A DNA stretch of 31,855 nt from a virus (IMGVR_UViG_3300025083_000131:1-31855), one strand, 5' to 3'; counted from the stretch's first letter, positions 3,803 to 31,387 are shown. The notes: generated by a model not told the origin, from the letters alone. Numbers and translations are program-made.

Positions 3803-3809
3803 TATTTAT
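3803..3809 (-). promoter_or_regulatory. T4-type late promoter (ATAAATA)
   Basis: The minus strand reads GATAAATACA just after the stop codon of the 4042-residue gene and 29 bases before the ATG of the fiber-like gene. It matches the NATAAATA late promoter recognised in T4-like phages by the gp55/gp33 system. AAAAGGA between box and ATG could serve as ribosome binding site. Confidence 0.7.
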
Positions 3810-18425: not shown

Positions 18426-18450
18426 GTAATGTTTCCACAACAATTATGAG

Positions 18451-18458
18451 TTATTTAT
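18451..18458 (-). promoter_or_regulatory. T4-type late promoter before gp25
   Basis: The minus strand reads TAATAAATAACTC, a good match to the late box, between the stop of the 50-residue gene and gp25. It probably drives gp25, gp6 and the giant gene. Confidence 0.7.
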
Positions 18459-18476
18459 TACACTAAACCCAATCTT

Positions 18477-20318: not shown

Positions 20319-20347
20319 ATTATACTTCGATATTTAGTGTCTGTCAA
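20319..20347 (-). promoter_or_regulatory. Perfect sigma70-type promoter for the glycosyltransferase operon
   Basis: The minus strand has TTGACA (20342-20347), a 17-bp spacer and TATAAT (20319-20324), full consensus at both hexamers. It sits between the stop of the 70-residue gene and the glycosyltransferase ATG at 20290. It should be used by the host RNA polymerase, so this operon is probably expressed early although it adjoins late genes. Confidence 0.85.
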
Positions 20348-20755: not shown

Positions 20756-20784
20756 AGTATAACATAACAGCTGCAATTTGTCAA
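20756..20784 (-). promoter_or_regulatory. Sigma70-type promoter, TTGACA-17-TATACT with extended -10
   Basis: TTGACA (20779-20784) is followed after exactly 17 bp by TATACT (20756-20761), with a TG one base upstream of the -10. It points to the 70-residue gene and the glycosyltransferase operon. Expected start of transcription is near 20749. Confidence 0.8.
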
Positions 20785-21022: not shown

Positions 21023-21122
21023 GAGTTGAGTGTTTTAGAAAAGATTTGTGTGAGTTTATCACCAGCAGTAGAGTTGCCAACTGACTCGCTTGGGAGTGAT
21101 GAATGGGTGTCCTGTGCCCCTC

Positions 21123-21154
21123 ACACTATAGGGGTCAATTCGAGGTGAGTAACT
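21123..21154 (-). promoter_or_regulatory. Intergenic repeat, copy 1 (lowest coordinate)
   Basis: Minus-strand order: GTTACTCACCT, CGAATTGACC, then CCTATAGTGTGA. The -10-like hexamer is TATAGT. Unlike most copies it is about 100 bases from the next ATG (21022) and is not adjacent to a stop codon. Confidence 0.8.
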
Positions 21155-21155
21155 C

Positions 21156-21212
21156 TAAGGGGGTGCTATATAGGCCCCCTTATATAAGGCCTCTATATAT
21201 GGCCCTTATATG
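21156..21212. repeat. Nested G/C-clamped TATATA palindromes
   Basis: Between the stop of the 49-residue gene and repeat copy 1 there are three TATATA cores flanked by G and C runs: a GGGGG...CCCCC stem around CTATATAG, the perfect 12-bp palindrome CCTTATATAAGG (21178-21189), and CTCTATATATGGCCC. It could be a processing or termination structure, or a protein-binding array. Confidence 0.55.
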
Positions 21213-21213
21213 A

Positions 21214-21363
21214 TCAGAACTCCAATTCCATAAGTGTTGGCTCATTGGCGACTTGTGCTACTTGCTGTTCATTAGCGCCCTGTGAGATAGACTCAAGGAT
21301 CTCAAGAATCTGTGAACCTGTGTTACCCTTACGAAGCAGGGAGATCATTACAGATTTGGTCAT
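21214..21363 (-). CDS. Small protein, 49 residues
   Basis: The product starts MTKSVMISLLRKGNTGSQIL, then EILESISQGANEQQ, and ends TLMELEF. The LRKGNTGxxILEILESI segment resembles a short helical protein seen in several cyanophages. It is preceded by about 60 bases without the intergenic repeat, and no ribosome site stands out. Function unknown. Confidence 0.65.
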   Translation of the reverse strand: MTKSVMISLLRKGNTGSQILEILESISQGANEQQVAQVANEPTLMELEF

Positions 21364-21424
21364 GATAAAGTGTTAGTGAGTGTTTGTTTGTGATGTGTAG
21401 TTTAAAGTCATTGCGGACTGTGAA

Positions 21425-21544
21425 TCAAAGCACGGACTTGCGTCTACGCTTAATCTGTGAGGGGAGCACAGTTACTGTTACTTTGTAGTGTCCATCTGCC
21501 TTAAGTGTGTCAATGGTCTGTAGCAGTGATTGTGTGGAACTCAT
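21425..21544 (-). CDS. Small protein, 39 residues
   Basis: The product reads MSSTQSLLQTIDTLKADGHY followed by KVTVTVLPSQIKRRRKSVL, with a basic C terminus. Repeat copy 2 ends 15 bases before the ATG with no Shine-Dalgarno, the pattern seen across the array, which supports this as a true start. Function unknown. Confidence 0.6.
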   Translation of the reverse strand: MSSTQSLLQTIDTLKADGHYKVTVTVLPSQIKRRRKSVL

Positions 21545-21558
21545 CGATGATTGCCGTG

Positions 21559-21593
21559 GTTACACTATAGGGGTCATTTGAAGGTGAGTAACT
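21559..21593 (-). promoter_or_regulatory. Intergenic repeat, copy 2
   Basis: Reads AGTTACTCACCTTC, AAATGACC, CCTATAGTGTAAC on the minus strand. It heads the 39-residue gene. Upstream lies the origin-like segment instead of a gene. Confidence 0.85.
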
Positions 21594-21641
21594 ATGTGGG
21601 TCATGAACTTCGGGGGTTTCAGAGTATTTTTGGGGGAGGGG

Positions 21642-21670
21642 TTGACATTATCGGAAAGGCCTGATAGAAT
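21642..21670 (+). promoter_or_regulatory. Sigma70-type promoter pointing against all genes
   Basis: TTGACA (21642-21647), a 17-bp spacer and TAGAAT (21665-21670) with an extended TG, on the plus strand. No plus-strand gene follows. The RNA would start near 21677 and run through the AT-rich repeats, then antisense to the small genes above 21908. Confidence 0.7.
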
Positions 21671-21689
21671 ACGGCCTAAGATGACAATA

Positions 21690-21880
21690 AGATCTGCCAT
21701 TTATAAGACTTAAAGAGATATTAGATCTGCCATTAATTAACACCTTTTCCACAGAATAACACACTTATTAACACCTTTAACCTTACTATTCCACAGCCAT
21801 TGTGGAAAACAATAAAACACTCATATACATTTAAAAAGGCCTTTATTAAACGTTTTTAATGAAAATAGTCTATTTATAAG
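21690..21880. other. Candidate replication origin: AT-rich, DnaA-box-like nonamers and direct repeats
   Basis: This segment holds two AGATCTGCCATT repeats (21690 and 21723), two ATTAACACCTTT repeats (21736 and 21767), and three DnaA-box-like nonamers: TTTTCCACA at 21745, TATTCCACA at 21787, and TTTTCCACA on the minus strand at 21801-21809. The last two form an inverted repeat, TTCCACA-gccat-TGTGGAA. The following 70 bases are very AT-rich. A strong promoter fires into it from 21642. The combination resembles a bacterial origin, or a T4-style origin where an RNA from a nearby promoter invades an unwinding element. No replication evidence can be seen directly. Confidence 0.45.
21871..21878 (-). 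promoter_or_regulatory. Perfect T4 late box TATAAATA inside the origin-like segment
   Basis: The minus strand reads CTTATAAATAGAC, an exact match to the T4 late consensus. The nearest supported gene downstream is the 39-residue gene at 21544, more than 300 bases away, so its target is unclear. Confidence 0.5.
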
Positions 21881-21907
21881 TGTTTTTTAGGTGTATTTCT
21901 TGAGTTC

Positions 21908-22171
21908 TTAAGTAGTAACCTGATTCTGTACTCTTCCCACTTCATCATCAATCAGTTCACCTATTTGTGTGTAGATGTCATCAGTATTCCCTACCTCAAA
22001 TAGCACTTGGTCACTATCATCTTGAGAGAGATATAATTCATCATTAGATACATCTTCAAAATAGAATACATCTTCTTTAGTATAGATGAAGGAAGCACAT
22101 GTAGCATTCTCTCCTTGTTGTTCAATGAGTTGATTTACTTGGTCTTTGAGTTTAGATAGTGTGTGATACAT
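21908..22171 (-). CDS. Conserved-type cyanophage protein, 87 residues
   Basis: The product starts MYHTLSKLKDQVNQLIEQQG, then ENATCASFIYTKEDVFYFED, and continues acidic to the end (GELIDDEVGRVQNQVTT). I recall similar proteins in cyanomyoviruses. A helical N terminus is followed by a beta-rich acidic region. It is the last gene of a three-gene unit headed by repeat copy 3 and starts 9 bases after the preceding stop. Function unknown. Confidence 0.8.
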   Translation of the reverse strand: MYHTLSKLKDQVNQLIEQQGENATCASFIYTKEDVFYFEDVSNDELYLSQDDSDQVLFEVGNTDDIYTQIGELIDDEVGRVQNQVTT

Positions 22172-22180
22172 TGTGATTAG

Positions 22181-22342
22181 TTAGAGAAAAGGATTACAGG
22201 TAGTACGTGTTAATGGTTCACCTAATTGTTCTTTGGTTGGTATCTCATCATGAGGACGATATGCATAGATGATTGAACTTAACTGAGCTTGTAGTTTATC
22301 ATCCATCTGTGTATTGCGTAGATGATAGATGTCATAATTCAA
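22181..22342 (-). CDS. Small protein, 53 residues (TTG start) or 41 (internal ATG)
   Basis: The conserved-looking part is MDDKLQAQLSSIIYAYRPHD followed by EIPTKEQLGEPLTRTTCNPF. A TTG at 22342 overlaps the stop of the upstream gene (TTGA), suggesting coupling and 12 extra residues (NYDIYHLRNTQ after the start). The first internal ATG is at 22306 and lacks a ribosome site. The gene fills the gap between two better-known neighbours. Function unknown; the start is uncertain. Confidence 0.6.
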   Translation of the reverse strand: MNYDIYHLRNTQMDDKLQAQLSSIIYAYRPHDEIPTKEQLGEPLTRTTCNPFL

Positions 22343-22674
22343 GAGAAGATATATCCGTTAGTGAACTCTTTGGTTACGTTGTTATCTCTTACGAACCATT
22401 GATAGTTCTTTTGAAAGACACCATCAGTGAATGCATTACAGAACTCATTAATAAGTGCATTGAGTCTTGACTTAGTAGTATTAGACTGCCAACCTCCATC
22501 GAAGATTGTCATATCGTTGTCAGAAACCTCGGCAATCTTGTTACCATGAAGGAAGACTGAAGCAACAACACATTTGTCACCATCATTGAAGAAATTAACA
22601 ACTTTTGTGTTTCCTGATTTCCAATCAGTTTCAGACTTGATTGCTTGGATCATTTGGGTTTCGATCTTTCTCAT
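22339..22674 (-). CDS. Conserved-type T4-like cyanophage protein, 111 residues
   Basis: The product begins MRKIETQMIQAIKSETDWKS and contains the distinctive IFDGGWQSNTTKSRLNALIN followed by EFCNAF. I remember this combination as a widespread conserved hypothetical of cyanomyoviruses and other marine T4-likes. It looks like a small soluble domain with beta strands around KVVNFFNDGDKCVVASVFLHG. It is the first gene after repeat copy 3, whose end is 19 bases upstream. Its function is not known to me. Confidence 0.88.
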   Translation of the reverse strand: MRKIETQMIQAIKSETDWKSGNTKVVNFFNDGDKCVVASVFLHGNKIAEVSDNDMTIFDGGWQSNTTKSRLNALINEFCNAFTDGVFQKNYQWFVRDNNVTKEFTNGYIFS

Positions 22675-22693
22675 GATGTGGTGGATTGTGTTC

Positions 22694-22727
22694 TTACACT
22701 ATAGGAGTCAATTGAAGGTGAGTAACT
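22694..22727 (-). promoter_or_regulatory. Intergenic repeat, copy 3
   Basis: Reads AGTTACTCACCTTC, AATTGACTC, CTATAGTGTAAG on the minus strand. It begins three bases after the stop codon of the secreted zincin-like gene and heads the 111-residue gene. Confidence 0.88.
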
Positions 22728-22730
22728 TTG

Positions 22731-23276
22731 TCAGAAACAAAATTCACGTACTTTTTGTTCAATAGAGGATGCAGGTACATCTTCAGCTACAACATAAGCT
22801 TCCATCTCTTGTTGTATCTTAAGATCGCTTAATCCTTGTTCCTCTAACATTGAATATAAGCCTTGTAAATTCTCTAAACTTACAGATGAATTTTTTAGAA
22901 ATTCAACTAACTCATCTTCAGGAAATAACGTTGAAAGTATTCCATCACCTAATGATTCTGCTGCACAATCTTGTACGACATGATGAGCTTCATGTCTTAA
23001 TGTATCTAAATCATTTGCAGTCCATTTCTCTTGCTTACCATGACTTACCATCTTATCTTGACAAATTACTAAAAATCCAATATGTGGATAATATATGCCA
23101 TCATTCTTACCACTACAATGTAACTTGGAATTGACTGCCATAGTCACTCCAACATCTTCTAATGTTTGATATAACTTCTCATGATCCTTAAATGTATTTT
23201 GTGCGTACGCATTACTTGCTGTTAATACAAATGCAGTGACAGTTGATGTGATAACTGTAGATAGAAGATTCTTCAT
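22731..23276 (-). CDS. Predicted secreted zincin-like metalloprotease, 181 residues
   Basis: The protein starts with a typical signal peptide (MKNLLSTVITSTVTAFVLTA, then SNAYA before QN as cleavage site). After that it has an HExxH zinc-protease motif, H95-E96-A97-H98-H99, in LRHEAHHVVQDC. A glutamate 60 residues later in QQEMEAYVVAED (E157 or E159) could be the third ligand, as in gluzincins. Three or four cysteines (C54, C72, C104, C180) could form disulfides. It follows the 76-residue gene by 12 bases behind repeat copy 4, with no ribosome site. Possible jobs are cell-envelope remodelling or digestion of a periplasmic target; the substrate is unknown. The motif is visible, activity is inferred. 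Confidence 0.72.
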   Translation of the reverse strand: MKNLLSTVITSTVTAFVLTASNAYAQNTFKDHEKLYQTLEDVGVTMAVNSKLHCSGKNDGIYYPHIGFLVICQDKMVSHGKQEKWTANDLDTLRHEAHHVVQDCAAESLGDGILSTLFPEDELVEFLKNSSVSLENLQGLYSMLEEQGLSDLKIQQEMEAYVVAEDVPASSIEQKVREFCF

Positions 23277-23288
23277 AATAAGATAAGA

Positions 23289-23519
23289 TTAAACATTAAG
23301 TGTAGTTGGTACATATTCTGCAATATCTGATACGTCATCACTATCAAGATATGTTGCAGTGAATTGAATTGCGTCACGATGTGATCGAAACTCAACAGTT
23401 ACATTATCATACTCAGTTGGATTGAATGTAACAGATAATGGTGCGACATTTGATTCCTCACATACTTGTGCGACTGCAGTCAATGTATAGTCAGAAAAGA
23501 AATCGTAGTTGATTTTCAT
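23289..23519 (-). CDS. Hypothetical protein, 76 residues
   Basis: The product begins MKINYDFFSDYTLTAVAQVC and is beta-rich and acidic, ending DVSDIAEYVPTTLNV. It is the first gene after repeat copy 4, with an unusually long gap of about 40 bases from the repeat to the ATG. There is no signal peptide or membrane segment. Function unknown. Confidence 0.75.
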   Translation of the reverse strand: MKINYDFFSDYTLTAVAQVCEESNVAPLSVTFNPTEYDNVTVEFRSHRDAIQFTATYLDSDDVSDIAEYVPTTLNV

Positions 23520-23557
23520 AAAAGTTGAAAGTTGATTGGGTGGGATGCCGTATGGCG

Positions 23558-23592
23558 GTTATACTATAAGAGTCAATTCGAGGTGAGTAACT
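23558..23592 (-). promoter_or_regulatory. Intergenic repeat, copy 4
   Basis: Reads AGTTACTCACCTCG, AATTGACTC, TTATAGTATAAC on the minus strand. It starts three bases after the stop of the 85-residue gene and heads the pair 76-residue protein and zincin-like protein. Confidence 0.87.
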
Positions 23593-23595
23593 CTC

Positions 23596-23853
23596 TCACC
23601 ACTGATTGGTTTGTATCATATAACTACGAATCTCATCATATGCAAATCTCTGAATCTTAACATCAGTTGCGGTATCTAAGACTTCATACATTCTTTGAAT
23701 ATATTCACTCTTTGTTGTTGGTGGTGATATGTTTTTCTTTGCGGTATATCCTAGATTAGTGTTACCATTGGTTCGAGTCTTTGGCCTTCCAAAGTTACCC
23801 GTTACATTGCCTTCTGTTCTTAACTTAGTCTTGATCTTAGATAGATTTGTCAT
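23596..23853 (-). CDS. Hypothetical protein, 85 residues
   Basis: I start at the ATG at 23853 (MTNLSKIKTKLRTEGNVTGN) because GGAGGAGC lies about 8 bases upstream, a good ribosome site; a TTG two codons earlier is less likely. The N-terminal half is basic and Gly/Asn/Thr-rich (GRPKTRTNGNTNLGYTAKK), probably disordered. The second half looks helical (EYIQRMYEVLDTATDVKIQR). It follows the 91-residue gene with almost no gap and ends at repeat copy 4. Function unknown. Confidence 0.75.
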   Translation of the reverse strand: MTNLSKIKTKLRTEGNVTGNFGRPKTRTNGNTNLGYTAKKNISPPTTKSEYIQRMYEVLDTATDVKIQRFAYDEIRSYMIQTNQW

Positions 23854-23855
23854 GA

Positions 23856-24131
23856 TCAAAGCTCCTCCATCATTTCATTCATCTCTACACTGTTGATATT
23901 AACATCATCCCACTTTACGCCATCACCTGTAGTTTCAGCACCACAGTTTAACATACAACGAACAAACTTCTCATATGGGGTATCATCTTCATTACAGAAT
24001 TTGACACATGCTTTGGCCGTATTATACAGAAACTCATCATTACCCATCCATAGACTTGCGTTCCAGGTTTCATAGTTAGTCCAACCATTGTAGCTGGTGT
24101 CTTCCATTGTGGTCTGATAGGTTGATGTCAT
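23856..24131 (-). CDS. Phage protein with GWTNYETWNASLW motif, 91 residues
   Basis: The N-terminal YNGWTNYETWNASLWMGND is a recurrent signature of small proteins in phages and plasmids, often written NYETWN. After it come three cysteines (KACVKFCNED, MLNCGAE) and an acidic end with Met and Glu. I know the motif but no established activity. Repeat copy 5 ends 15 bases before the ATG, with no Shine-Dalgarno; its own last codons provide the GGAGGAGC used by the next gene. Confidence 0.8.
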   Translation of the reverse strand: MTSTYQTTMEDTSYNGWTNYETWNASLWMGNDEFLYNTAKACVKFCNEDDTPYEKFVRCMLNCGAETTGDGVKWDDVNINSVEMNEMMEEL

Positions 24132-24145
24132 GAGTTGATTGCGTG

Positions 24146-24180
24146 GTTACACTATAGGAGTCATTTGGAGGTGAGTAACT
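24146..24180 (-). promoter_or_regulatory. Intergenic repeat, copy 5
   Basis: Reads AGTTACTCACCTCC, AAATGACTC, CTATAGTGTAAC on the minus strand. It directly abuts the stop codon of the 69-residue gene and heads the 91-residue gene. Confidence 0.88.
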
Positions 24181-24390
24181 TTAGAAGAGCCAGGATAACA
24201 ACCCCTTTCTATCATTATCACTGTTATGCTCTCTTACAACTGTTGGCCAAGTTGCACTTGAATTTGGTATCATACCTTCGACAAGTCTCATTGCTTCATC
24301 ATTATACATTGCCTCCACATTGATATGGCGAGTTCCAGCTTCTGTTGGGACAGTGTAAGGAACTCGAAAAGTGTATGTGATTTGTGCCAT
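24181..24390 (-). CDS. Hypothetical protein, 69 residues
   Basis: The product starts MAQITYTFRVPYTVPTEAGT and ends NDRKGLLSWLF. It may be a small beta strand plus helix protein. It lies 20 bases after the secreted 76-residue gene without a repeat between them, so it probably belongs to the transcript from copy 6. Function unknown. Confidence 0.72.
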   Translation of the reverse strand: MAQITYTFRVPYTVPTEAGTRHINVEAMYNDEAMRLVEGMIPNSSATWPTVVREHNSDNDRKGLLSWLF

Positions 24391-24410
24391 GATAAAAAAG
24401 AAGAATTGTG

Positions 24411-24641
24411 TTAGTTAGGGGTGGACTCAAGTTCAAACAAACTTCGACGCAGTTTGCGTTCTATCTGTTGATTGACACAACGGTCATATTTCTGTGGCTC
24501 GTCAAGCGGTACTTTATCACAAATAAGACTTAAACTTTCAATAAAGTCTATAATCTGTTCACTCTCTGAATATGCATGAACAGGAGATGATCCTGATAAA
24601 AGTAATACTGAAATAACTGGAATAATGTTAATAAGTTTCAT
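24411..24641 (-). CDS. Predicted secreted small protein, 76 residues
   Basis: The ATG at 24641 gives MKLINIIPVISVLLLSGSSP then VHAYSESEQ, a signal peptide with an Ala-x-Ala-like cleavage region. GGAGG lies 6 bases upstream, so this start is much better than the longer open frame to 24758. The mature part is about 54 residues with two cysteines (LICDKVP, DRCVNQQ), possibly one disulfide, and a basic patch (ERKLRRSL). It overlaps nothing and starts next to the stop of the 73-residue gene. It is the second exported protein of this array. Function unknown. Confidence 0.75.
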   Translation of the reverse strand: MKLINIIPVISVLLLSGSSPVHAYSESEQIIDFIESLSLICDKVPLDEPQKYDRCVNQQIERKLRRSLFELESTPN

Positions 24642-24642
24642 A

Positions 24643-24864
24643 TCAACCTCCGTAAACTTCTTCGGCCATGGGTGTATCAGTGTAGATACTTGGCACCTTA
24701 ACTGATTCCCCAAACATTTGCTCAAAAATATCAGGCTCAAATTGTTTTTTATAGTCACGATTTAGTCGTGCAATCTCTTCTTTACATGCTTCGACTTCCA
24801 TTTGTGCCTTCCACATTTTGTGGCGAAGATCATACTGCAAGTTGTTTCTTTCTGTGATTGTCAT
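24643..24864 (-). CDS. Coiled-coil protein, 73 residues
   Basis: The product begins MTITERNNLQYDLRHKMWKA, then QMEVEACKEEIARLNRDYKK, a heptad-like helix likely to form a coiled coil. It ends TDTPMAEEVYGG, whose codons include the ribosome site of the secreted gene downstream. Repeat copy 6 ends 13 bases before the ATG. Function unknown. Confidence 0.77.
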   Translation of the reverse strand: MTITERNNLQYDLRHKMWKAQMEVEACKEEIARLNRDYKKQFEPDIFEQMFGESVKVPSIYTDTPMAEEVYGG

Positions 24865-24876
24865 AATGTTGAACGG

Positions 24877-24911
24877 GTTACACTATAGGAGTCAATTAGA
24901 GGTGAGTAACT
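24877..24911 (-). promoter_or_regulatory. Intergenic repeat, copy 6
   Basis: Reads AGTTACTCACCTCT, AATTGACTC, CTATAGTGTAAC on the minus strand. Its first bases overlap the TAG stop of the 65-residue gene. It heads the 73-residue, secreted 76-residue and 69-residue genes. Confidence 0.88.
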
Positions 24912-25107
24912 ATGAAGAGGTCATATCGTCCCATACTTCTTCGCCATAACAATCACTAATCTCTTCCTTTAGATCTTCCATCTCATAACCTTTTAAGTTT
25001 TCCACAATACTATCCTCAGCGAATTCAATCAATAGTTTCATATCCATTCCCTCTACAATCATTTCAGCATAATCTCTTTTTAATTGGTCTAGTTGAGTGA
25101 TAGTCAT
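24910..25107 (-). CDS. Acidic phage protein, 65 residues (YAEMIVEGMDMK type)
   Basis: I choose the ATG at 25107 (MTITQLDQLKRDYAEMIVEG then MDMKLLIEFAEDSIVENL), which resembles common T4-like phage proteins of this size. A longer frame to 25161 would be translated from the worn repeat copy 7 and is unlikely; the ATG at 25113 is an alternative. The protein is helical and acidic (MEDLKEEISDCYGEEVWDD). It may be a small regulatory protein, but no activity is known to me. Confidence 0.8.
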   Translation of the reverse strand: MTITQLDQLKRDYAEMIVEGMDMKLLIEFAEDSIVENLKGYEMEDLKEEISDCYGEEVWDDMTSS

Positions 25108-25137
25108 GTTCATTTGATTGATTTGCAAGTGGAATAA

Positions 25138-25155
25138 TTTAGAGGTAAGTGACTT
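25138..25155 (-). promoter_or_regulatory. Worn intergenic repeat, copy 7
   Basis: Only the upstream part survives: the minus strand reads AAGTCACTTACCTCTAAA, compared with AAGTTACTCACCTC in full copies. The CTATAGTG part is replaced by TTATTCCACT. It still sits between two genes at the usual place, which suggests decay of a former full copy. Confidence 0.6.
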
Positions 25156-25157
25156 TA

Positions 25158-25355
25158 TCACCCAACAGAAACAAGTTCTTCAAACCTATCAAGAGTTGCA
25201 TATCTTACGACTCCATTCTCATCTGTGAGTTGAACCATGGGCCACATGGATGAATCAGCGAGAAACTTACCACCGGTAATGATATGAACCATTCCAGTTT
25301 TTTCGTCTTCTACTTTACAACCGATTGCTTCTTGGACCCAGTTAAGAAAACTCAT
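25158..25355 (-). CDS. Hypothetical protein, 65 residues
   Basis: The product starts MSFLNWVQEAIGCKVEDEKT and continues GMVHIITGGKFLADSSMW, a short helix followed by a likely small beta-barrel (PMVQLTDENGVVRYATLDRF). It heads a unit behind repeat copy 8. The pattern resembles small SH3-like domains, but that is only a guess. Function unknown. Confidence 0.75.
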   Translation of the reverse strand: MSFLNWVQEAIGCKVEDEKTGMVHIITGGKFLADSSMWPMVQLTDENGVVRYATLDRFEELVSVG

Positions 25356-25372
25356 TTGAAACGAAAAACAGA

Positions 25373-25407
25373 ATTACACTATAGGAGTCATTTGGAGGTG
25401 AGTAACT
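25373..25407 (-). promoter_or_regulatory. Intergenic repeat, copy 8
   Basis: Reads AGTTACTCACCTCC, AAATGACTC, CTATAGTGTAAT on the minus strand, 22 bases after the stop of the 58-residue membrane protein, one of the larger stop-to-repeat gaps. Confidence 0.87.
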
Positions 25408-25429
25408 CTATCACTCATCAAGTTGAATA

Positions 25430-25606
25430 TCAAAACCAGAGATACATCATTCGTCTTACCCATAGTTCACCAGCAGCGGTGTTGTGTAACAACAAACCAA
25501 TGTAATGACCAATAACAATAATGAATAGACACGAACACAATATACCAATGGCGGACATGGCGCCAATCAACACGTCATTAGTGAAGGTAGAAAGTTGTTG
25601 TTTCAT
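25430..25606 (-). CDS. Single-pass membrane protein, 58 residues
   Basis: The product begins MKQQLSTFTNDVLIGAMSAI, then GILCSCLFIIVIGHYIGLLL, giving one strong membrane helix at about residues 13-40, and a short basic/aromatic tail (GELWVRRMMYLWF). Repeat copy 9 ends 14 bases before the ATG. Placement behind a repeat and the clean hydrophobic segment support it as a gene. Small phage membrane proteins often affect host envelope or superinfection, but nothing specific can be said. Confidence 0.75.
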   Translation of the reverse strand: MKQQLSTFTNDVLIGAMSAIGILCSCLFIIVIGHYIGLLLHNTAAGELWVRRMMYLWF

Positions 25607-25619
25607 GATTGATTGTGTG

Positions 25620-25654
25620 GTTGCACTATAGGAGTCATTTGGAGGTGAGTAACT
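25620..25654 (-). promoter_or_regulatory. Intergenic repeat, copy 9
   Basis: Reads AGTTACTCACCTCC, AAATGACTC, CTATAGTGCAAC on the minus strand and heads the 58-residue gene. No stop codon of an intact gene adjoins its upstream side, unlike most copies. Confidence 0.87.
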
Positions 25655-25760
25655 TTGATATCCGACAAGTGGGCCTTACATTGTAATACTGTAACCACCA
25701 CAGAAATTGTATTACAAATGCCCATAGATTAGCGGGTTGAGGCTGATACTTGAACTGCGG
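25635..25760 (-). pseudogene. Possible gene remnant without start codon (Trp-rich frame)
   Basis: Between the 35-residue gene and repeat copy 9, one minus frame is open for 41 codons and looks coding: YQPQPANLWAFVIQFLWWLQ then YYNVRPTC. It has no ATG, GTG or TTG at its front, begins inside the 35-residue gene, and ends inside the repeat. Either a frameshift separated it from the frame of the 35-residue gene (joined, it would make one protein of about 65 residues), or it is accidental. Confidence 0.35.
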
Positions 25761-25836
25761 TCATTGCAGTCATTGTTGTTGAATCAATCCACACAATCTT
25801 GCGGGTCTTGATGTCTGATGCGATGTTGTAGATCAT
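25729..25836 (-). CDS. Small protein, 35 residues, coupled to upstream gene
   Basis: The product starts MIYNIASDIKTRKIVWIDST and ends VQVSASTR. Its ATG overlaps the upstream TGA (ATGA), strong support for coupled translation. A second frame just downstream looks coding, so this protein may be a truncated version of a longer one. Function unknown. Confidence 0.6.
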   Translation of the reverse strand: MIYNIASDIKTRKIVWIDSTTMTAMTAVQVSASTR

Positions 25837-26015
25837 TTGTCTGATTTACCATTAGTGAAAGATCCTATGATTGGCTCTGGGCCACAAAGATTACGTTTAA
25901 CTTCTGCATATCCAAACTCTTCAGATAGATCACAACAGATACGCCATGCTTGATCTAGGTCATTTGTGGTCACATCTTCATATCGAGCGGATGGAACAAC
26001 AATTCTAAACTCCAT
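25833..26015 (-). CDS. Hypothetical protein, 60 residues
   Basis: The product starts MEFRIVVPSARYEDVTTNDL, then DQAWRICCDLSEEFGYAEVK, with alternating strand and helix pattern and two adjacent cysteines. It ends KSDK with an ATGA overlap to the 35-residue gene. Repeat copy 10 ends 16 bases before the ATG. Function unknown. Confidence 0.75.
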   Translation of the reverse strand: MEFRIVVPSARYEDVTTNDLDQAWRICCDLSEEFGYAEVKRNLCGPEPIIGSFTNGKSDK

Positions 26016-26031
26016 TTGAATTGATTGCGTG

Positions 26032-26066
26032 GTTACACTATAGTGGTCAATTGAAGGTGAGTAACT
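26032..26066 (-). promoter_or_regulatory. Intergenic repeat, copy 10
   Basis: Reads AGTTACTCACCTTC, AATTGACCA, CTATAGTGTAAC on the minus strand. It abuts the TAA stop of the 67-residue gene. Confidence 0.88.
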
Positions 26067-26270
26067 TTATTTTAGTTCAATTCGGTCAATTAAACACATA
26101 CCAAGCTCGTAAAACAAATCTTCATCAACATCACCTAGTTTGGCACGTAATGCATCAGAAACTAAATCATTCATAAGTTCCATATAACGCTCATCTTCGT
26201 AGATGTGGTTGATAACATCAGATTTGAGTGCATCAACAAGTTTAGAGACGCAAGTTGCAGAGAGTGACAT
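26067..26270 (-). CDS. Conserved-type cyanophage protein, 67 residues
   Basis: The product reads MSLSATCVSKLVDALKSDVI, then NHIYEDERYMELMNDLVSDA, mainly helical. I recall cyanophage proteins with the same MSLS..C...L......VI.YI.EDERY pattern. It follows the 25-residue membrane peptide by 5 bases and ends at repeat copy 10. The function is unknown to me. Confidence 0.8.
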   Translation of the reverse strand: MSLSATCVSKLVDALKSDVINHIYEDERYMELMNDLVSDALRAKLGDVDEDLFYELGMCLIDRIELK

Positions 26271-26275
26271 GATAG

Positions 26276-26353
26276 TTAGGAAAAGTGTTTGATAATAGTT
26301 ACAAAGAATGCCCCGACGGCAATATAATAAAAGAAACGAATAATGGTAAACAT
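26276..26353 (-). CDS. Tiny membrane peptide, 25 residues
   Basis: The product starts MFTIIRFFYYIAVGAFFVTI and ends with KHFS, almost entirely one membrane helix. The ATG overlaps the stop of the 113-residue gene (TAATG) and its stop is 5 bases before the next ATG. The tight fit on both sides makes it more likely real than its size suggests. Function unknown. Confidence 0.55.
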   Translation of the reverse strand: MFTIIRFFYYIAVGAFFVTIIKHFS

Positions 26354-26694
26354 TAGCGAACGTAAAGAAAAGAACCGTAAGGATCTACGATCTCAGGAGT
26401 ATCAACTAAGGACTCAAGAAAGAATCGAATGCCTTTCGCAGGTGCTTTATGTGATGCTGGTTTGTAACATGCACCAGACTCTTTGTCGATGAACATGAAC
26501 ACGCCGTTATTTGAAGAACTACCATCAGCATGAACCTTGAATTGATTCAGTTTGAGGTATTTCTTACCTGCACTATATTCTAGTTTGGAATATGAACTGT
26601 GTCCAGACTCTACTGCATTAACTTTCCAGTCATTATTAACAACTTCAATCAATGATTCAGTCAAAAATTCAGTTTTAGTTTGTGTGATTATCAT
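26353..26694 (-). CDS. Hypothetical phage protein, 113 residues
   Basis: The product starts MIITQTKTEFLTESLIEVVN. It is a beta-rich soluble protein (KKYLKLNQFKVHADGSSSNN then GVFMFIDKESGACYKPASHK) ending VDPYGSFLYVR. The GVFMFIDKESG..YKPAS.K.PAKG arrangement is familiar from small T4-like phage proteins, but I know no function. It heads the unit behind repeat copy 11, 14 bases away, followed by the membrane peptide and the 67-residue protein. Confidence 0.78.
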   Translation of the reverse strand: MIITQTKTEFLTESLIEVVNNDWKVNAVESGHSSYSKLEYSAGKKYLKLNQFKVHADGSSSNNGVFMFIDKESGACYKPASHKAPAKGIRFFLESLVDTPEIVDPYGSFLYVR

Positions 26695-26708
26695 GTGGTG
26701 ATTGTGTG

Positions 26709-26743
26709 ATTACACTATAGTGGTCAATTGGAGGTGAGTAACT
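26709..26743 (-). promoter_or_regulatory. Intergenic repeat, copy 11
   Basis: Reads AGTTACTCACCTCC, AATTGACCA, CTATAGTGTAAT on the minus strand. It abuts the TAG stop of the 105-residue gene. Confidence 0.88.
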
Positions 26744-27061
26744 CTAGTCGTCTGAATTTGCGTAGTATTCGTTATCAGTTTTGACATCAGTGAAACATTC
26801 TTCCTCATCATCAAAAATGAGATATAATGTTTGATTATTATCCTCAACATTCCATTCTGAATGGAGAGATAGTATGTTACGCCCAACATAAGACTTTTTA
26901 CTCTTTTTCTTGGCCTTCTTATACTCTTTGGCCATGATCTTCATTTGATCTTCATATTGACCAAGAATATCTTCTGCAAGATATTCCGTTCGGTCATGAT
27001 TGTACTCAAATGTTGTACCTTCGGTTTCAAAGGTTTCTGTTTGTTTAGGATCAAATTTCAT
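26744..27061 (-). CDS. Hypothetical protein, 105 residues
   Basis: The product starts MKFDPKQTETFETEGTTFEY. It has a Lys-rich central helix (AKEYKKAKKKSKKSYVGRN) between two acidic halves and ends DEEECFTDVKTDNEYYANSD. The sharp charge segregation suggests a nucleic-acid or protein-binding surface, but no domain is recognised. It follows the 69-residue gene by 14 bases without a repeat. Confidence 0.75.
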   Translation of the reverse strand: MKFDPKQTETFETEGTTFEYNHDRTEYLAEDILGQYEDQMKIMAKEYKKAKKKSKKSYVGRNILSLHSEWNVEDNNQTLYLIFDDEEECFTDVKTDNEYYANSDD

Positions 27062-27075
27062 AATATATCTGTTAA

Positions 27076-27285
27076 TTATGCTGCAGCCTCAGTTTTGGCC
27101 TTACCGACATTAGATGGGCCAGACCAAACCATACCATTTTCTTGCCAATAGGTAATAAATGCACGACGAAGTTCTAGAAGTTCATCATAACGGGCCTGTT
27201 GACTAGATGTAAACTTAAAGTTTTGAACTTTGTAAGTTTTCTGAAGTGATTGAAGCTCTTTAAGTACGGTAGATGAATTGTTCAT
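27076..27285 (-). CDS. Helical protein, 69 residues
   Basis: I start at the ATG at 27285 (MNNSSTVLKELQSLQKTYKV); a TTG three codons upstream is the alternative. The middle is helical with an aromatic end (RYDELLELRRAFITYWQENG then MVWSGPSNVGK). The repeat (copy 12) lies 17 bases before this ATG. Function unknown. Confidence 0.75.
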   Translation of the reverse strand: MNNSSTVLKELQSLQKTYKVQNFKFTSSQQARYDELLELRRAFITYWQENGMVWSGPSNVGKAKTEAAA

Positions 27286-27302
27286 GATTGTCAAATGTGA
27301 TG

Positions 27303-27337
27303 GTTACAGTATAGTGATCAATTAGAGGTGAGTAACT
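27303..27337 (-). promoter_or_regulatory. Intergenic repeat, copy 12
   Basis: Reads AGTTACTCACCTCT, AATTGATCA, CTATACTGTAAC on the minus strand. The -10-like hexamer is TATACT, a change that keeps the key T, A and final T of a bacterial -10. Confidence 0.87.
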
Positions 27338-27345
27338 TTAATTAC

Positions 27346-27555
27346 TCACAATAATTTGGTAGAAGAGATAATGAGAAGGAATGTTAGCATGATAACTACA
27401 TCCCATGATTTTGTTCTAATAAAGAACGGAACAGAAATGGCATCAGCAATAAACTGCATGAAGACACCAACTGTGACATTTACATGTAAGATAACAAAGT
27501 AGGCAGAAACAACTAGGAAAGATCCAATTATTCTGCCCACAGTATCAATTTTCAT
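27346..27555 (-). CDS. Membrane protein with two predicted helices, 69 residues
   Basis: The product begins MKIDTVGRIIGSFLVVSAYF, then VILHVNVTVGVFMQFIADAI, and contains SVPFFIRTKSWDVVIMLTFL. I recall very similar conserved cyanophage membrane proteins (GRxIG...V..YF.ILHV....G....FIADAIS.PFF.RTK.WDVVIML). GGAGGAGATG in the upstream gene's end, 14 bases away, may supply its ribosome site. It is last in the unit headed by copy 13. The role is unknown, probably in the inner membrane. Confidence 0.82.
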   Translation of the reverse strand: MKIDTVGRIIGSFLVVSAYFVILHVNVTVGVFMQFIADAISVPFFIRTKSWDVVIMLTFLLIISSTKLL

Positions 27556-27557
27556 AG

Positions 27558-27758
27558 TTAATTCATCTCCTCCTGTGTAACATTACGATAGTTTTCCACA
27601 ATTGTCAGTAGTTTGTCTTTAGCAGTTTCTATTGTTGCACGTGAGTAACCAGTATAAAAAGAATAACCTTTAGTTGGGTCAGTCATGGCACTTTTATACT
27701 CTTCCAATGCCCAATCAAGATTTTCGATAACAGACAGAAGCTGATTGTCAATGTTCAT
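27558..27758 (-). CDS. Hypothetical helical protein, 66 residues
   Basis: The product starts MNIDNQLLSVIENLDWALEE, then YKSAMTDPTKGYSFYTGYSR, mostly helix, and ends NVTQEEMN. Its ATG overlaps the stop of the basic 43-residue gene (ATGA) and its end is 2 bases from the next ATG. No function recognised. Confidence 0.77.
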   Translation of the reverse strand: MNIDNQLLSVIENLDWALEEYKSAMTDPTKGYSFYTGYSRATIETAKDKLLTIVENYRNVTQEEMN

Positions 27759-27886
27759 GGTGATTTGATACTTAGTTTGAGTTTGAGTGACCTTAGAGAC
27801 TGCTTACGCCCCTTTAGAACACCCTTACAGATGCCCTTGGTCTTCTTATCTTTTTTAGAATGATGTTTCCAATTAGGTATATTCAT
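27755..27886 (-). CDS. Very basic small protein, 43 residues
   Basis: The product starts MNIPNWKHHSKKDKKTKGIC, then KGVLKGRKQSLRSLKLKLSI, with about 15 Lys/Arg residues. The ATG overlaps the upstream stop (TGATG) and its stop overlaps the next start (ATGA), so it is embedded in a coupled operon. The charge suggests nucleic-acid binding. Function unknown. Confidence 0.65.
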   Translation of the reverse strand: MNIPNWKHHSKKDKKTKGICKGVLKGRKQSLRSLKLKLSIKSP

Positions 27887-28068
27887 CACATGCCATTCAT
27901 GAACTCATGAAGTTCAGCATAATACTGTTCTTCAGTGTCAAATGAACGACCATGAATAACACATGGAAATGTTTTCTTTTGAAACATAGTGGACGTAACT
28001 TCTACGTCTTGTTTGTCATAACCCATTTCGAGCAGGTTTTGGATGTAAGGATTTGAATTGTATGTCAT
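27886..28068 (-). CDS. Hypothetical protein, 60 residues (start inside the repeat)
   Basis: The open frame gives MTYNSNPYIQNLLEMGYDKQ, then DVEVTSTMFQKKTFPCVIHG and RSFDTEEQYYAELHEF. The ATG at 28068 follows the TATAGT hexamer of repeat copy 13 directly, so a transcript made from that hexamer would begin after it. Either the true start is Met15 (28026) or the transcript comes from further upstream. The sequence from Met15 onward looks compact and complete. Function unknown. Confidence 0.7.
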   Translation of the reverse strand: MTYNSNPYIQNLLEMGYDKQDVEVTSTMFQKKTFPCVIHGRSFDTEEQYYAELHEFMNGM

Positions 28069-28098
28069 ACTATAGGAGTCAATTGGAGGTGAGTAACT
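28066..28098 (-). promoter_or_regulatory. Intergenic repeat, copy 13
   Basis: Reads AGTTACTCACCTCC, AATTGACTC, CTATAGTATG on the minus strand. Its 3' edge is fused to the ATG of the 60-residue gene. The upstream side abuts the TAG stop of the 69-residue gene. Confidence 0.87.
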
Positions 28099-28308
28099 CT
28101 ATTTCCTTCGTTTTCTTAACTTATCTATCAAATTGAGTGCTGATTGACGGTTGCGACATACTTTAACCGGTTGTCCATTGTGTATCACCATTAATTTAGT
28201 TGTACTACCTGCTACAGGTATTGCAGCGAGTTCACCATCACCAATCATAATGGGAAATGGCGGCACCTTAGTGTCAAGAATACCTGAATTTGTGTAGTTG
28301 AAAGACAT
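28099..28308 (-). CDS. Hypothetical protein, 69 residues
   Basis: The product starts MSFNYTNSGILDTKVPPFPI, then MIGDGELAAIPVAGSTTKLM, beta-rich, with a basic C-terminal helix (CRNRQSALNLIDKLRKRRK). AAAGAG lies just upstream as a weak ribosome site. It lies about 115 bases after the helicase stop with no repeat between. Function unknown. Confidence 0.75.
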   Translation of the reverse strand: MSFNYTNSGILDTKVPPFPIMIGDGELAAIPVAGSTTKLMVIHNGQPVKVCRNRQSALNLIDKLRKRRK

Positions 28309-28423
28309 AAAAACTCTTTTTTCAATAACGGGACGGGGATGGATGACCTAACACATCTAAACGGTCAGGATATAGAAAAATCAGTTTATGATACTCCCAG
28401 ATCCTTTGGTATGACTGAGCCGA

Positions 28424-29602
28424 TTACCGGCGAACAACACTGTCGCACATCTCACCCTTCTCAAAGACAATATCTACAGCATTCTGTAGGGCTCTTTGAG
28501 TAGAAACTCCGACGTTATTATATACTGGCACACATAGCATACCATAGACTTTGTTAGAAGAACCGACACGAATCACGCGACCCACAGTCTGCAACATCTC
28601 GATAACATCCATGTTACGGAGAAACACAACGGCTTCGAGTTCTGAACAGTTAATACCTTCAGATAGGATAGAACGATGAAGGACAACGAATTTCTTATCT
28701 ACATCTCTACCCCATGCATTGAGTGTATCAAAGAACTCCTCACGCTTGACTTTCTTACCATCAACAACTGCACCAGTCTTCGATGTAATATAGAGGTAAG
28801 AATAACCACGCTCTTTAAGTTGTTCTGCAAAGTCTGTCAGAAAGATATTCTGCAGTTGTCGTGTGGTCTTGACACAAACTAGGATCTTTTTGATGTCTAG
28901 TTCATCAATGGATGCAAGAACATTATTACTTTCAAGATAAGGTGTGAGTGACTTTTTGTCAACTTTATCCATCTCAATCACCTTGACTTTAGGTGGCAAA
29001 ATGTAACCTCCGTCAACCAGAGTTGGTGCAGACACACGTGCAATCACCTGTCCATAAGTATCAACGTCATTCATACCATGTTTCTTTGGTGTGACTGAAG
29101 TCTTACGAGTCGCAGTAAAATAGTAACAACGATCAGCCTTCTTACTGAAATACTCAGTGGGCCCGAAGAAGTTATTTTGACAGGAGTTATGTGCCTCGTC
29201 AAAGTATATGGTATCTACAGCAATACCGGACTCTTCCACACGATGGAGAGAATGATATGTCGTGAAAATAATAACATGTTCACGTACAGTTTGACACATA
29301 TCAACAAACAGTTTGATATGTTCAGACTTTGTAGTGCTGAAGTGTTTTGTATCACCAGAATGAACATGCAAAACATTAGCATTGGTGATGTGTTCCATAT
29401 ACTCACTGCACAACTGATTAGCAAGGAGCAGTCTAGGAGCCACAACTACAATGGTACGAGGAACATTTACCTCAAACCGTTTCATTGCATCAGTGATTGC
29501 AATTAGAGTCTTGCCACCACCAGTTGGAACAATAACTTGACCCATACTATTGACACGCATTGCATCAAGAGCTTCGTTTTGATGTGGGCGAAGAGTGATC
29601 AT
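28424..29602 (-). CDS. SF2 DEAH-type helicase, 392 residues
   Basis: The protein has a complete superfamily 2 helicase core: a Q-like start (LRPHQNEAL), Walker A PTGGGKT (26-32), the Ia region VVAPRLLLANQL, DEAH (135-138) in IYFDEAHNS, motif III TAT (163-165) in YYFTATRKTS, and motif VI QTVGRVIRVG (338-347) with its two arginines. It should couple ATP hydrolysis to movement on nucleic acid. At 392 residues it is shorter than T4 UvsW (about 590) and resembles the small stand-alone UvsW-like or RAD25-type helicases of phages. Repeat copy 14 lies 11 bases upstream. The 195-residue gene before it may be a nuclease (PD...DxK), suggesting a joint function. Confidence 0.88.
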   Translation of the reverse strand: MITLRPHQNEALDAMRVNSMGQVIVPTGGGKTLIAITDAMKRFEVNVPRTIVVVAPRLLLANQLCSEYMEHITNANVLHVHSGDTKHFSTTKSEHIKLFVDMCQTVREHVIIFTTYHSLHRVEESGIAVDTIYFDEAHNSCQNNFFGPTEYFSKKADRCYYFTATRKTSVTPKKHGMNDVDTYGQVIARVSAPTLVDGGYILPPKVKVIEMDKVDKKSLTPYLESNNVLASIDELDIKKILVCVKTTRQLQNIFLTDFAEQLKERGYSYLYITSKTGAVVDGKKVKREEFFDTLNAWGRDVDKKFVVLHRSILSEGINCSELEAVVFLRNMDVIEMLQTVGRVIRVGSSNKVYGMLCVPVYNNVGVSTQRALQNAVDIVFEKGEMCDSVVRR

Positions 29603-29613
29603 AAAGTTGTGGT

Positions 29614-29648
29614 GTTATATTATAGTGGTCAATTGAAGGTGAGTAACT
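29614..29648 (-). promoter_or_regulatory. Intergenic repeat, copy 14
   Basis: Reads AGTTACTCACCTTC, AATTGACCA, CTATAATATAAC on the minus strand. The hexamer is TATAAT, the exact bacterial -10 consensus. It heads the helicase. Confidence 0.88.
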
Positions 29649-29651
29649 TTA

Positions 29652-30239
29652 TCACCCCAATAATACTTTTGGAAAGTATGGTGTAAGGTCAGAATCAATT
29701 ACATTATGTTTACAGTCAACAAATTTCTTTCGTGATATGTTTTTGACATAGATTAACTGACCAATATTGATTTCTTTGTAATCCCGTGGGGTTCTCTTGC
29801 GAATTAAAGCAAAAGCTTCATTTTCACTACGAGTAGACACAACCACTTTAGACAATCTATCAATATCTGTCAAGAAATTGTTGATTAGATCATAAGATTT
29901 GTCCTCAACAAACTTATCATAATGATATGCAAAGATAAACTTTGATCCACTACGAACACCACCAAAGTGTTCTTTGGTAAGACTACTTCCACCTTTGACT
30001 TTCATGTCAATAACTTTAGATAGAGTCTTATCTGGATATTCACTCCATCTTAGAAATGCATCGGGAGTAAGAAGTGCACCAGTTTCATCAATTTTAAGTG
30101 AAGAACCCCAACAAATACCACCAGAAAGATCTTCAATACACTTGAACATGGTGTCCCGAGTATAAAGATCCAACTGAGATTGATCAAGAGACATAATCAA
30201 CTTAAGTTGATTTGTAAGATGATTTTTTGCAGTAGTCAT
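29652..30239 (-). CDS. Possible PD-(D/E)XK nuclease-like protein, 195 residues
   Basis: I do not recognise a named family. The protein starts MTTAKNHLTNQLKLIMSLDQ and is mixed alpha/beta. LLTPDAFLRW followed 17 residues later by VIDMKVKGG gives P59-D60 and D78-M-K80, the spacing and residues of a PD-(D/E)XK core, with E52 or E67 as a possible further acidic residue. A basic stretch (ALIRKRTPRDYKE) could bind DNA. It lies directly before the SF2 helicase, each behind its own repeat, which fits a DNA-processing role. The fold is inferred from short motifs only. Confidence 0.6.
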   Translation of the reverse strand: MTTAKNHLTNQLKLIMSLDQSQLDLYTRDTMFKCIEDLSGGICWGSSLKIDETGALLTPDAFLRWSEYPDKTLSKVIDMKVKGGSSLTKEHFGGVRSGSKFIFAYHYDKFVEDKSYDLINNFLTDIDRLSKVVVSTRSENEAFALIRKRTPRDYKEINIGQLIYVKNISRKKFVDCKHNVIDSDLTPYFPKVLLG

Positions 30240-30251
30240 GTGGTGGGCGTG

Positions 30252-30286
30252 ATTATACTATGGGAATCAATTGGAGGTGAGTAACT
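30252..30286 (-). promoter_or_regulatory. Intergenic repeat, copy 15
   Basis: Reads AGTTACTCACCTCC, AATTGATTC, CCATAGTATAAT on the minus strand. The hexamer is CATAGT, the weakest -10 in the set. It abuts the stop of the 54-residue gene and heads the nuclease-like gene. Confidence 0.86.
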
Positions 30287-30451
30287 TTATTGGCGTTGAC
30301 GAACCGAGTTAATTACAACTCTTTCTGCTGGATACTGTGATTCTACAATATCCAGTATCAAAGATCTATCCGCACTATCAGTTTGTATCTCAAAGTTATG
30401 CCTACGACCATTGCGATCAGTCCAGGCACCTTTTACATTAAATTGTGTCAT
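30287..30451 (-). CDS. Small phage protein, 54 residues
   Basis: The product begins MTQFNVKGAWTDRNGRRHNF, then EIQTDSADRSLILDIVESQY, and ends AERVVINSVRQRQ. The pattern of a short beta sheet with a helix (DRNGR.HNFEI....DRS.I...V...YPAERV.I) recalls small cyanophage proteins. It follows the 293-residue gene by 5 bases. Its stop abuts repeat copy 15. Function unknown. Confidence 0.75.
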   Translation of the reverse strand: MTQFNVKGAWTDRNGRRHNFEIQTDSADRSLILDIVESQYPAERVVINSVRQRQ

Positions 30452-30456
30452 GTTAA

Positions 30457-31338
30457 TCAGTTACCGAACCCATGATTGAAATTAGCGTAGGCAAACTCAG
30501 TACGATTGACCAACTTGACTGAACCATACGTGTCAGAGTGGAAGACATAACCTTCACCATCAGTCTCTTTTCCATTAGGAAGATATGCAGTAGGTGCATC
30601 ACTGATGATGAAACTATCCATCAAATCATACTTGATGTCAATCACCAACTGATACAGATTTGCAAGGAAAGGACAACCTAGAATGTCAGTCAGTGATGCG
30701 TCATCAACAAACTGACCAGACTTGATAAGTGCGTTGATAGCAACTTTGGCATGACTTGCTTCTTTGTCAGTCAGAAACTTGATATTGTCAGTGTTAATCT
30801 TGGGTGCATCATATCCACCAAAAATACGGTCAACAGAAGGTTGTACCCACTTGATGATAACACTGTCATCAAACGATTCTTTGATTGGTTCACACACTGG
30901 TTCATGAAATGCAGTAGTAACATACACTTGAGTGTGTGGTGCAATTACCAGTTTCTGGTCAATCGCCTCGGGGAATGCGTAGGTAAGAGTATTTTGTGTC
31001 AGTACGTCAGTTCTACCAAAACCAAGCCAATCGGCCCAGTAGATGTTATCAGTTCTTGGTAGGTACTTAAGACAATATGACAGAATCTCAAACACTTCCA
31101 TTTGATGACCGAAATGCTCAAAGATGTCATCAGTCGTATAACATTTACGGTCTTTCTTCTTGTTGAATGCAGCCTTGGTGCAAACAAAAAACTTACCGTT
31201 GAGTGGATTTGTACCCCATACAAGAGACATTCCATCCATTTTCATGGAGATATGACCCACATCGTAGAGTAACTCAAAAACTGACAGATCACCTGTCAAA
31301 ATAAGATCTTCTGGGTGTTCGATATGTGTCAATGTCAT
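30457..31338 (-). CDS. Nucleotidyltransferase/ligase-like phage protein, 293 residues
   Basis: The protein starts MTLTHIEHPEDLILTGDLSV, a beginning I associate with a phage family annotated as a domain of unknown function. It carries motifs of the covalent nucleotidyltransferase superfamily (DNA/RNA ligases): KxDG as K33-M-D35-G36 in ISMKMDGMSLVWG, EGYVF at E262, and VKLV with K275, matching motifs I, IV and V in order and near the usual positions. Motifs III and IIIa are not obvious. If active it would form a lysyl-AMP intermediate and could seal or modify nucleic acid ends; it may also be inactive. It heads the unit behind repeat copy 16. Confidence 0.72.
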   Translation of the reverse strand: MTLTHIEHPEDLILTGDLSVFELLYDVGHISMKMDGMSLVWGTNPLNGKFFVCTKAAFNKKKDRKCYTTDDIFEHFGHQMEVFEILSYCLKYLPRTDNIYWADWLGFGRTDVLTQNTLTYAFPEAIDQKLVIAPHTQVYVTTAFHEPVCEPIKESFDDSVIIKWVQPSVDRIFGGYDAPKINTDNIKFLTDKEASHAKVAINALIKSGQFVDDASLTDILGCPFLANLYQLVIDIKYDLMDSFIISDAPTAYLPNGKETDGEGYVFHSDTYGSVKLVNRTEFAYANFNHGFGN

Positions 31339-31352
31339 AATAAAGTGGTGGT

Positions 31353-31387
31353 CTTATACTATAGTGGTCAATTGGAGGTGAGTAACT
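31353..31387 (-). promoter_or_regulatory. Intergenic repeat, copy 16 (highest coordinate)
   Basis: Reads AGTTACTCACCTCC, AATTGACCA, CTATAGTATAAG on the minus strand. It begins three bases after the stop of the 51-residue gene and heads the ligase-like gene. The array may continue past the window edge. Confidence 0.88.

Follow-up and report, generated by a model that had tools for sequence, protein, structure and literature searches.

The 31,855-nucleotide viral stretch IMGVR_UViG_3300025083_000131:1-31855, analysed at its full length and called the window below, is by gene content and synteny that of a T4-like cyanophage (Kyanoviridae). Its minus strand carries a module of small genes that includes a helicase gene; after this module come the gp25 and gp6 genes and one that encodes a very large gp7-like protein, an order that matches the cultured Synechococcus phage RN05-S and, in outline, also Syn9. 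Between the small genes lies the subject of this study, a family of 33-nucleotide (nt) repeats that stand, in nearly identical form, ahead of most genes of the module. It comprises 15 full copies and a worn sixteenth, spans 21121-31386 with every copy on the minus strand, and is far above chance expectation (the hexamer named in some lines is the -10-like element in the 3' part of the repeat):

31354..31386, minus strand: repeat copy 1, ahead of the 293-amino-acid gene 30457-31338 (DUF6267, Pfam)
30253..30285, minus strand: repeat copy 2, ahead of the 195-amino-acid gene 29652-30239; hexamer CATAGT
29615..29647, minus strand: repeat copy 3, ahead of the helicase gene 28424-29602; hexamer TATAAT; orthologous position traced in about 55 loci
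28065..28097, minus strand: repeat copy 4; hexamer overlapped (TATAGTATG) by the first ATG of the following open reading frame (ORF)
27304..27336, minus strand: repeat copy 5; hexamer TATACT
26710..26742, minus strand: repeat copy 6, ahead of a 113-amino-acid gene (DUF7717)
26033..26065, minus strand: repeat copy 7, by profile and placement
25621..25653, minus strand: repeat copy 8, by profile and placement
25374..25406, minus strand: repeat copy 9, by profile and placement
25121..25153, minus strand: worn copy GTCACTTACCTCTAAATTATTCCACTTGCAAAT, by score and position
24878..24910, minus strand: repeat copy 10; 1-nt overlap with the upstream stop codon
24147..24179, minus strand: repeat copy 11, ahead of a DUF7249 gene
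23559..23591, minus strand: repeat copy 12; ATG 39 nt away
22694..22726, minus strand: repeat copy 13, ahead of a Kyano_Gp96 gene
21560..21592, minus strand: repeat copy 14, by profile and placement
21121..21153, minus strand: repeat copy 15, the module's last; no clear ORF directly downstream

The exact string GTTACTCACCT occurs 15 times in the window, always on the minus strand and at 21143-31386, and the 15 full 33-mers align without gaps; at up to two mismatches the string gives 25 matches against 10.2 in shuffled sequence (shuffle maximum 19). The worn sixteenth copy (25153-25121; GTCACTTACCTCTAAATTATTCC...) scores 11.6 against the family profile, compared with 10.8 for the top chance score over 1.44 Mb of reversed sequence, and it stands where a copy is expected, with a stop codon 4 nt upstream and an ATG 7 nt downstream; we accept it because the score lies just over the chance maximum and the position fits. 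The one-mismatch match at 27649 is intragenic, has the rest of the motif missing and was rejected as chance. Most of what had been described in an earlier account of the window made without database searches (the sequence-only reading) was borne out: the number of copies and their single orientation, the start of the repeats near stop codons (11 of 16 begin from 1 nt inside to 4 nt past the stop), their end shortly ahead of an ATG (12 of 16 at 12-19 nt, the copies at 23559, 28065 and 21121 being exceptions), and the hexamer variants TATAGT, TATAAT, TATACT and CATAGT at a fixed spacing from GTTACT. Its statement that conservation is higher in the spacer than in the -35 proved wrong, as GTTACT is identical in all 15 full copies and the first block is the best conserved part across lineages. 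Directly before the last repeat, at 21154-21214, is a short AT-rich run with repeated, partly palindromic words (ATATAAGGGCCATATATAGAGGCCTTATATAAGGGGGCCTATATAG).

A family profile built from seed copies was scanned over all fetched loci at a catalogue cut-off of 16, yielding 693 distinct copies (at least 505 distinct 33-mers) in 199 source stretches, which overlap, do not equal 199 separate phages and were in part fetched with pattern scans biased to certain letters. The family occurs in uncultured ocean phages and in the cultured RN05-S, RB11-B, S-B05, S-B43, SynMITS9220M01 and P-TIM68. None of the 139 stretches with at least four copies has mixed orientation and only 12 of 523 copies are intragenic, the reverse of the pattern (copies in both orientations and mostly intragenic) that the sequence-only reading had named as evidence against a promoter. 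In the same 523-copy flank analysis, 457 copies have a recognised upstream stop codon, which in 79% of them falls between -6 and +10 nt, and the next ATG lies a median 13 nt downstream (interquartile range 11-15). Translation of the short-leader genes probably starts without a Shine-Dalgarno sequence, because a Shine-Dalgarno-like word is found in only 6 of 401 leaders from all lineages.

At the level of whole genomes, 14 complete phage records were scanned with a relaxed pattern at up to two mismatches, together with a backward control pattern that gave three matches over all 14. There were 12 matches in RN05-S, 11 in RB11-B, 13 in S-B05, 8 in S-B43, 13 in P-TIM68 and 11 in SynMITS9220M01, confined in all six phages to the small-gene module, which is split over two places in the S-B05 and S-B43 records; ACG-2014f gave one weak match, and T4, Syn9, S-RIM2, S-T4, P-SSM2, S-PRM1 and S-SM2 gave none. 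The 10-mer TTACTCACCT occurs 14 times in the 206 kb of RN05-S, and 13 of these occurrences fall within the initial 12.5 kb. A search of 84,980 bacterial and archaeal genomes returned zero matches to the element, against its being a host promoter copied from bacteria; IMG/VR gave no match to the exact P-TIM68-dialect pattern, and a literature search on the letters of the motif turned up nothing pertinent among the papers listed. In the deposited genomes of S-B05 (stretch L133) and S-B43 (L130/L131) the two parts of the module are distant from each other, in S-B05 also on opposite strands with the junction beside a repeat copy (18337 versus 18400); misassembly and real rearrangement are both possible.

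Across lineages, the best conserved part of the repeat is its first block, a 10-nt box at columns 2-11, TTA[C/G]T[C/A/T]ACCT, followed by a conserved middle, AA..G[T/A]C, and a -10-like 3' part, CTATAGT / TAnTrT, which lies at a fixed distance from the box and in which T26, A27 and T29 are conserved at 93-99%. The register of the putative -10 is less clear: of 303 copies, 64% have TAnnnT at columns 24-29 and 82% have it two bases further downstream, at columns 26-31, so that 89% have it in either register and 11% in neither, with a distance from the box of 12 bp and 14 bp, respectively. An A at column 36, seven bases past T29, in 283 of 401 leaders favours the columns 24-29 register, the one given in the sequence-only reading.

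Each genome carries its own version of the element, which is GTTACTCACCTCCAATTGACYMCTATAGTGTAA in the window, ATTACTCACCTCCAAANGTCCACTATAGTGTAA in RN05-S, GTTAGTAACCTCCAAATGTCCnCTATAGTGTAA in contig L095, GTTAGTTACCTGCAAAGGTCn...TAGTGTAA in contig L093, RTTACTCACCTCTAAAGTGTCCCTATAGTRTRA in SynMITS9220M01 and GTTAGTTACCTCTAAATTGACnTATTAATGTAA in P-TIM68. Mean identity is 82% among copies of one genome versus 64% for the orthologous helicase-gene copies between genomes, and the helicase copy is nearer to its own genome's copies in 52 of 56 comparisons. By these comparisons the repeats show concerted evolution, through gene conversion, a shared reading factor, or both. The helicases of S-SM2 and SynMITS9220M01 are sisters on the helicase tree (100/97). 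In S-SM2 the middle and the hexamer are retained while GGGGGGTCGC takes the place of the first block, which in SynMITS9220M01 is TTACTCACCT; such a difference is what separate reading of the box and the -10 would lead one to expect. The box-swapped version in S-SM2 (stretch L217) is GGGGGGTCGCCTAAAGCGTCCCTATAGTATGAG; in that phage the hexamer is overlapped (TATAGTATG) by the start codons annotated at 9467 and 11324, whose placement may be wrong.

The repeats also coincide with the joints of gene cassettes. All-against-all alignments of 113 module stretches gave 4,100 distinct internal alignment ends, 31% of which lie inside a repeat ±10 nt, compared with 5.3% for randomly shifted repeat positions (maximum of 300 shifts 7.8%), a sixfold enrichment over expectation, although the ends are not independent and conservation of the repeat can itself draw alignments to its edge. 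Left alignment ends peak within 10 nt of the repeat's upstream edge, and one helicase cassette with its repeat, present at 35 loci, is preceded by 11 different upstream genes. Cassette exchange at the repeats, which the sequence-only reading had put forward as a possibility, thereby gains quantitative support; that the repeats mark swap points of gene cassettes between viruses is, together with a promoter role, the reading that these comparisons support best.

With the anatomy of the element, its phage specificity, its confinement to one module, its concerted evolution within genomes and the alignment breakpoints at the repeats established, we consider it probable that the repeats serve the pre-replicative small-gene module as a phage-specific promoter, built on a non-sigma-70 box and doubling as a recombination joint; promoter activity, early timing and a phage factor are the parts of this proposal that we infer from sequence. 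Each repeat would act as a promoter with the box at the -35 region, the conserved middle and a sigma-70-type -10, and transcription would start 7-9 nt past the hexamer to give a leader of about 8-15 nt that lacks a Shine-Dalgarno sequence. A phage-specific factor, delivered with the virion or made first, would help the host RNA polymerase to recognise the box, which would replace the -35 as MotA and its box do in T4 middle promoters, with a different protein; we propose such a factor on the grounds that the box is no host -35, varies from lineage to lineage, is uniform in each genome and is absent from bacteria. The near-identical copies would at the same time supply recombination homology, so that a cassette, comprising a promoter and the genes that follow it, could be swapped without loss of the control signal.

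Three observations weigh against this proposal. Its distribution on the helicase tree is patchy, as the element is missing from S-T4, P-SSM2 and S-PRM1 (in S-T4 and P-SSM2 no repeat family was found near the helicase). The base at -11 of the columns 24-29 hexamer is not A in about a quarter of the copies, which makes the -10 register uncertain. Finally, a comparison of RN05-S and P-TIM68 proteins with those of Syn9 gave no clear candidate for the reading factor that is required before early-gene expression, with many genes shared. The sequence-only reading had already proposed a phage-specific promoter that may also be an exchange joint, and the comparative evidence leaves this as the best interpretation, with the exact -10 register less sure than it was stated to be.

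Each lineage could further hold a private promoter dialect, in which a phage-encoded specificity factor and the -35-region box co-evolve and the copies, all kept uniform in a genome, serve as adapters through which cassettes pass chiefly among phages that share a dialect. We regard this extension as rather doubtful; if true, the transcription code would also filter gene exchange.

The strongest alternative, unlikely but with an appreciable chance of being right, is that the repeats are ordinary strong early promoters which the host RNA polymerase, unmodified, reads as it does those of T4; the extra bases would then only improve contacts and no phage factor would take part. In T4 early promoters, too, the consensus extends past the sigma-70 elements, and initiation there requires no phage protein (PMC2988021), early genes are read before any phage protein exists, and Clokie et al. 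2010 supposed an unmodified host polymerase for cyanomyovirus early genes (PMC2984593). However, the first block is unlike TTGACA, and a sigma-70 scan of the window did not report the repeats even though it holds perfect sigma-70 promoters elsewhere; furthermore, the box dialects differ between sister phages, and the element was found in no bacterial genome.

An element acting in RNA, as a processing site, terminator or riboregulator between the genes of one long transcript, would suit the position of the repeats between stop and start codons of co-oriented genes, and the terminal GTTAC...GTAAC could in principle pair. Predicted folds are nevertheless no better than those of shuffles (z -0.07 to 1.06), Rfam holds no match for the repeat, the element has neither a GC stem nor a T run, and lineages with 5' TTAG keep an unchanged 3' GTAA, which means that no compensatory change took place; on these grounds an RNA hairpin or riboregulator was rejected, and we hold the RNA-level explanation as a whole to be very improbable. 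Least credible of all is a passive recombination or mobile repeat devoid of any part in regulation, be it a selfish insertion or a hotspot of recombination, for while it would account for the sixfold excess of module alignment ends at the repeats and for their near-identity within a genome, it sits poorly with a single orientation, a fixed start-codon offset, one -10-like core across deep lineages, confinement to one module and the lack of terminal repeats, target duplications or copies elsewhere.

Among known systems, the proposed promoter resembles T4 middle promoters in having a phage box in the place of the -35; the MotA box of T4 is centred at -30 and lies 12 ± 1 bp from the -10 (PMC2988021), and the distance in the repeat is 12 bp if its hexamer is at columns 24-29 but 14 bp if it is at columns 26-31. 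The sequence of the box differs, as the MotA consensus WWTGCTTYA occurs in 0 of 505 distinct copies. Eight cyanophages lack the MotA and AsiA domains, both of which were detected in the T4 positive control, and a MotA-type middle promoter by descent was rejected for want of both the MotA box and MotA/AsiA.

Promoter-early stem-loop (PeSL) cassettes of T4-type phages were reportedly described by Arbiol et al. in 2010 and Comeau et al. in 2014. The window repeats resemble them as putative early promoter cassettes between the small genes of a hyperplastic region, with near-identical copies and module shuffling at those copies, the latter evident here from the alignment ends and the 11 upstream genes; unlike PeSL cassettes, they carry no stem-loop terminator and no sigma-70 -35. 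PeSL density is low in cyanophage S-PM2 (PMC4503421). A separate and longer intergenic repeat family with at least 15 copies, a GC-rich stem and a TATACTA hexamer, PeSL-like in character, is found in ACG-2014f (stretch L128, 2039-11078).

Intergenic repeats of the halovirus HF2 were shown to be promoters, with nine of nine cloned copies active (PMC8707807). They, too, are short and conserved in position within a virus genus, but they belong to an archaeal virus, act as archaeal promoters and are unrelated in sequence.

In Syn9 and S-RIM2 this module has a repeated element of another kind, made up of AAGTGTCCACTAT, a hairpin-like stretch and then CTATAAGAGTC. In Syn9, with elements at 46304 and 46346, CTATAAGAGTC follows AAGTGTCCACTAT by about 40 nt, and sequence and layout differ from those of the window-type repeat, with only the AAgTGTCCACTAT core common to the RN05-S dialect. 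The two families may be related, because the string AA(A/G)TGTCCACTAT is shared by the RN05-S dialect and the Syn9/S-RIM2 element. The transcriptome study of Syn9 and P-TIM40 by Doron et al. in 2016 is said to have found a novel early-gene element conserved in T4-like cyanophages, along with host-like middle, and late, promoters. The layout of the window is like the one attributed to that study, with repeats on the small genes and sigma-70 and late motifs elsewhere. A third kind of intergenic repeat, with three copies of AACCGGCCACA...TATATTGGCCATGTTGAGAGGAACAC, lies in the homologous region of S-PRM1 (stretch L129, 9185-12810).

Early-promoter cassettes of T4-like phages are already known; it is the variants collected here that make the mechanism testable. 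How T4-like cyanophages steer the host polymerase to early genes without MotA, AsiA, Alt and Mod is an open question (PMC2984593), for which the present analysis supplies a defined 33-nt element with about 500 natural variants and lineage-specific boxes. The cultured phage-host pairs of RN05-S and S-B05 (on Synechococcus MW02), P-TIM68 (on Prochlorococcus MIT9515) and SynMITS9220M01, together with the box swap between S-SM2 and SynMITS9220M01, make the early-promoter question directly testable, and the cut-and-join points of cassettes of unknown small genes in abundant ocean viruses are now located.

Outside the repeats, the window carries two further types of signal:

20319..20347, minus strand: consensus sigma-70 promoter TTGACA-17-TATAAT (12/12), ahead of the 259-amino-acid gene 19511-20290
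20756..20784, minus strand: sigma-70-like TTGACA-17-TATACT with TG before the second hexamer, from the sigma-70 scan
18452..18459, minus strand: late-promoter-like AATAAATA, ahead of the gp25 gene (18024-18443)
3803..3810, minus strand: late-promoter-like GATAAATA, ahead of ORF 1219-3774

By its sequence, the promoter at 20319..20347 is host-like and different from the repeats, and it stands just past the module, at the next gene block. The T4-type late motif TATAAATA does not occur within the repeats, its occurrences in the window being at 18459, 3810 and 21878, all on the minus strand. At the level of motifs, three signal types, namely the repeats, the sigma-70 promoter and the ATAAATA late motifs, are thus placed on three gene groups of the window. 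Within the module, the minus-strand gene 22731-23276 encodes a 181-amino-acid protein with a signal-peptide-like N-terminal stretch and the zinc-protease-like motif HEAHH, for which Pfam gave no match and PHROGs only matches of unknown function. The segment 21600-21900 is non-coding and holds, besides the TATAAATA motif at 21878, two copies of the word TGGCAGATCT.

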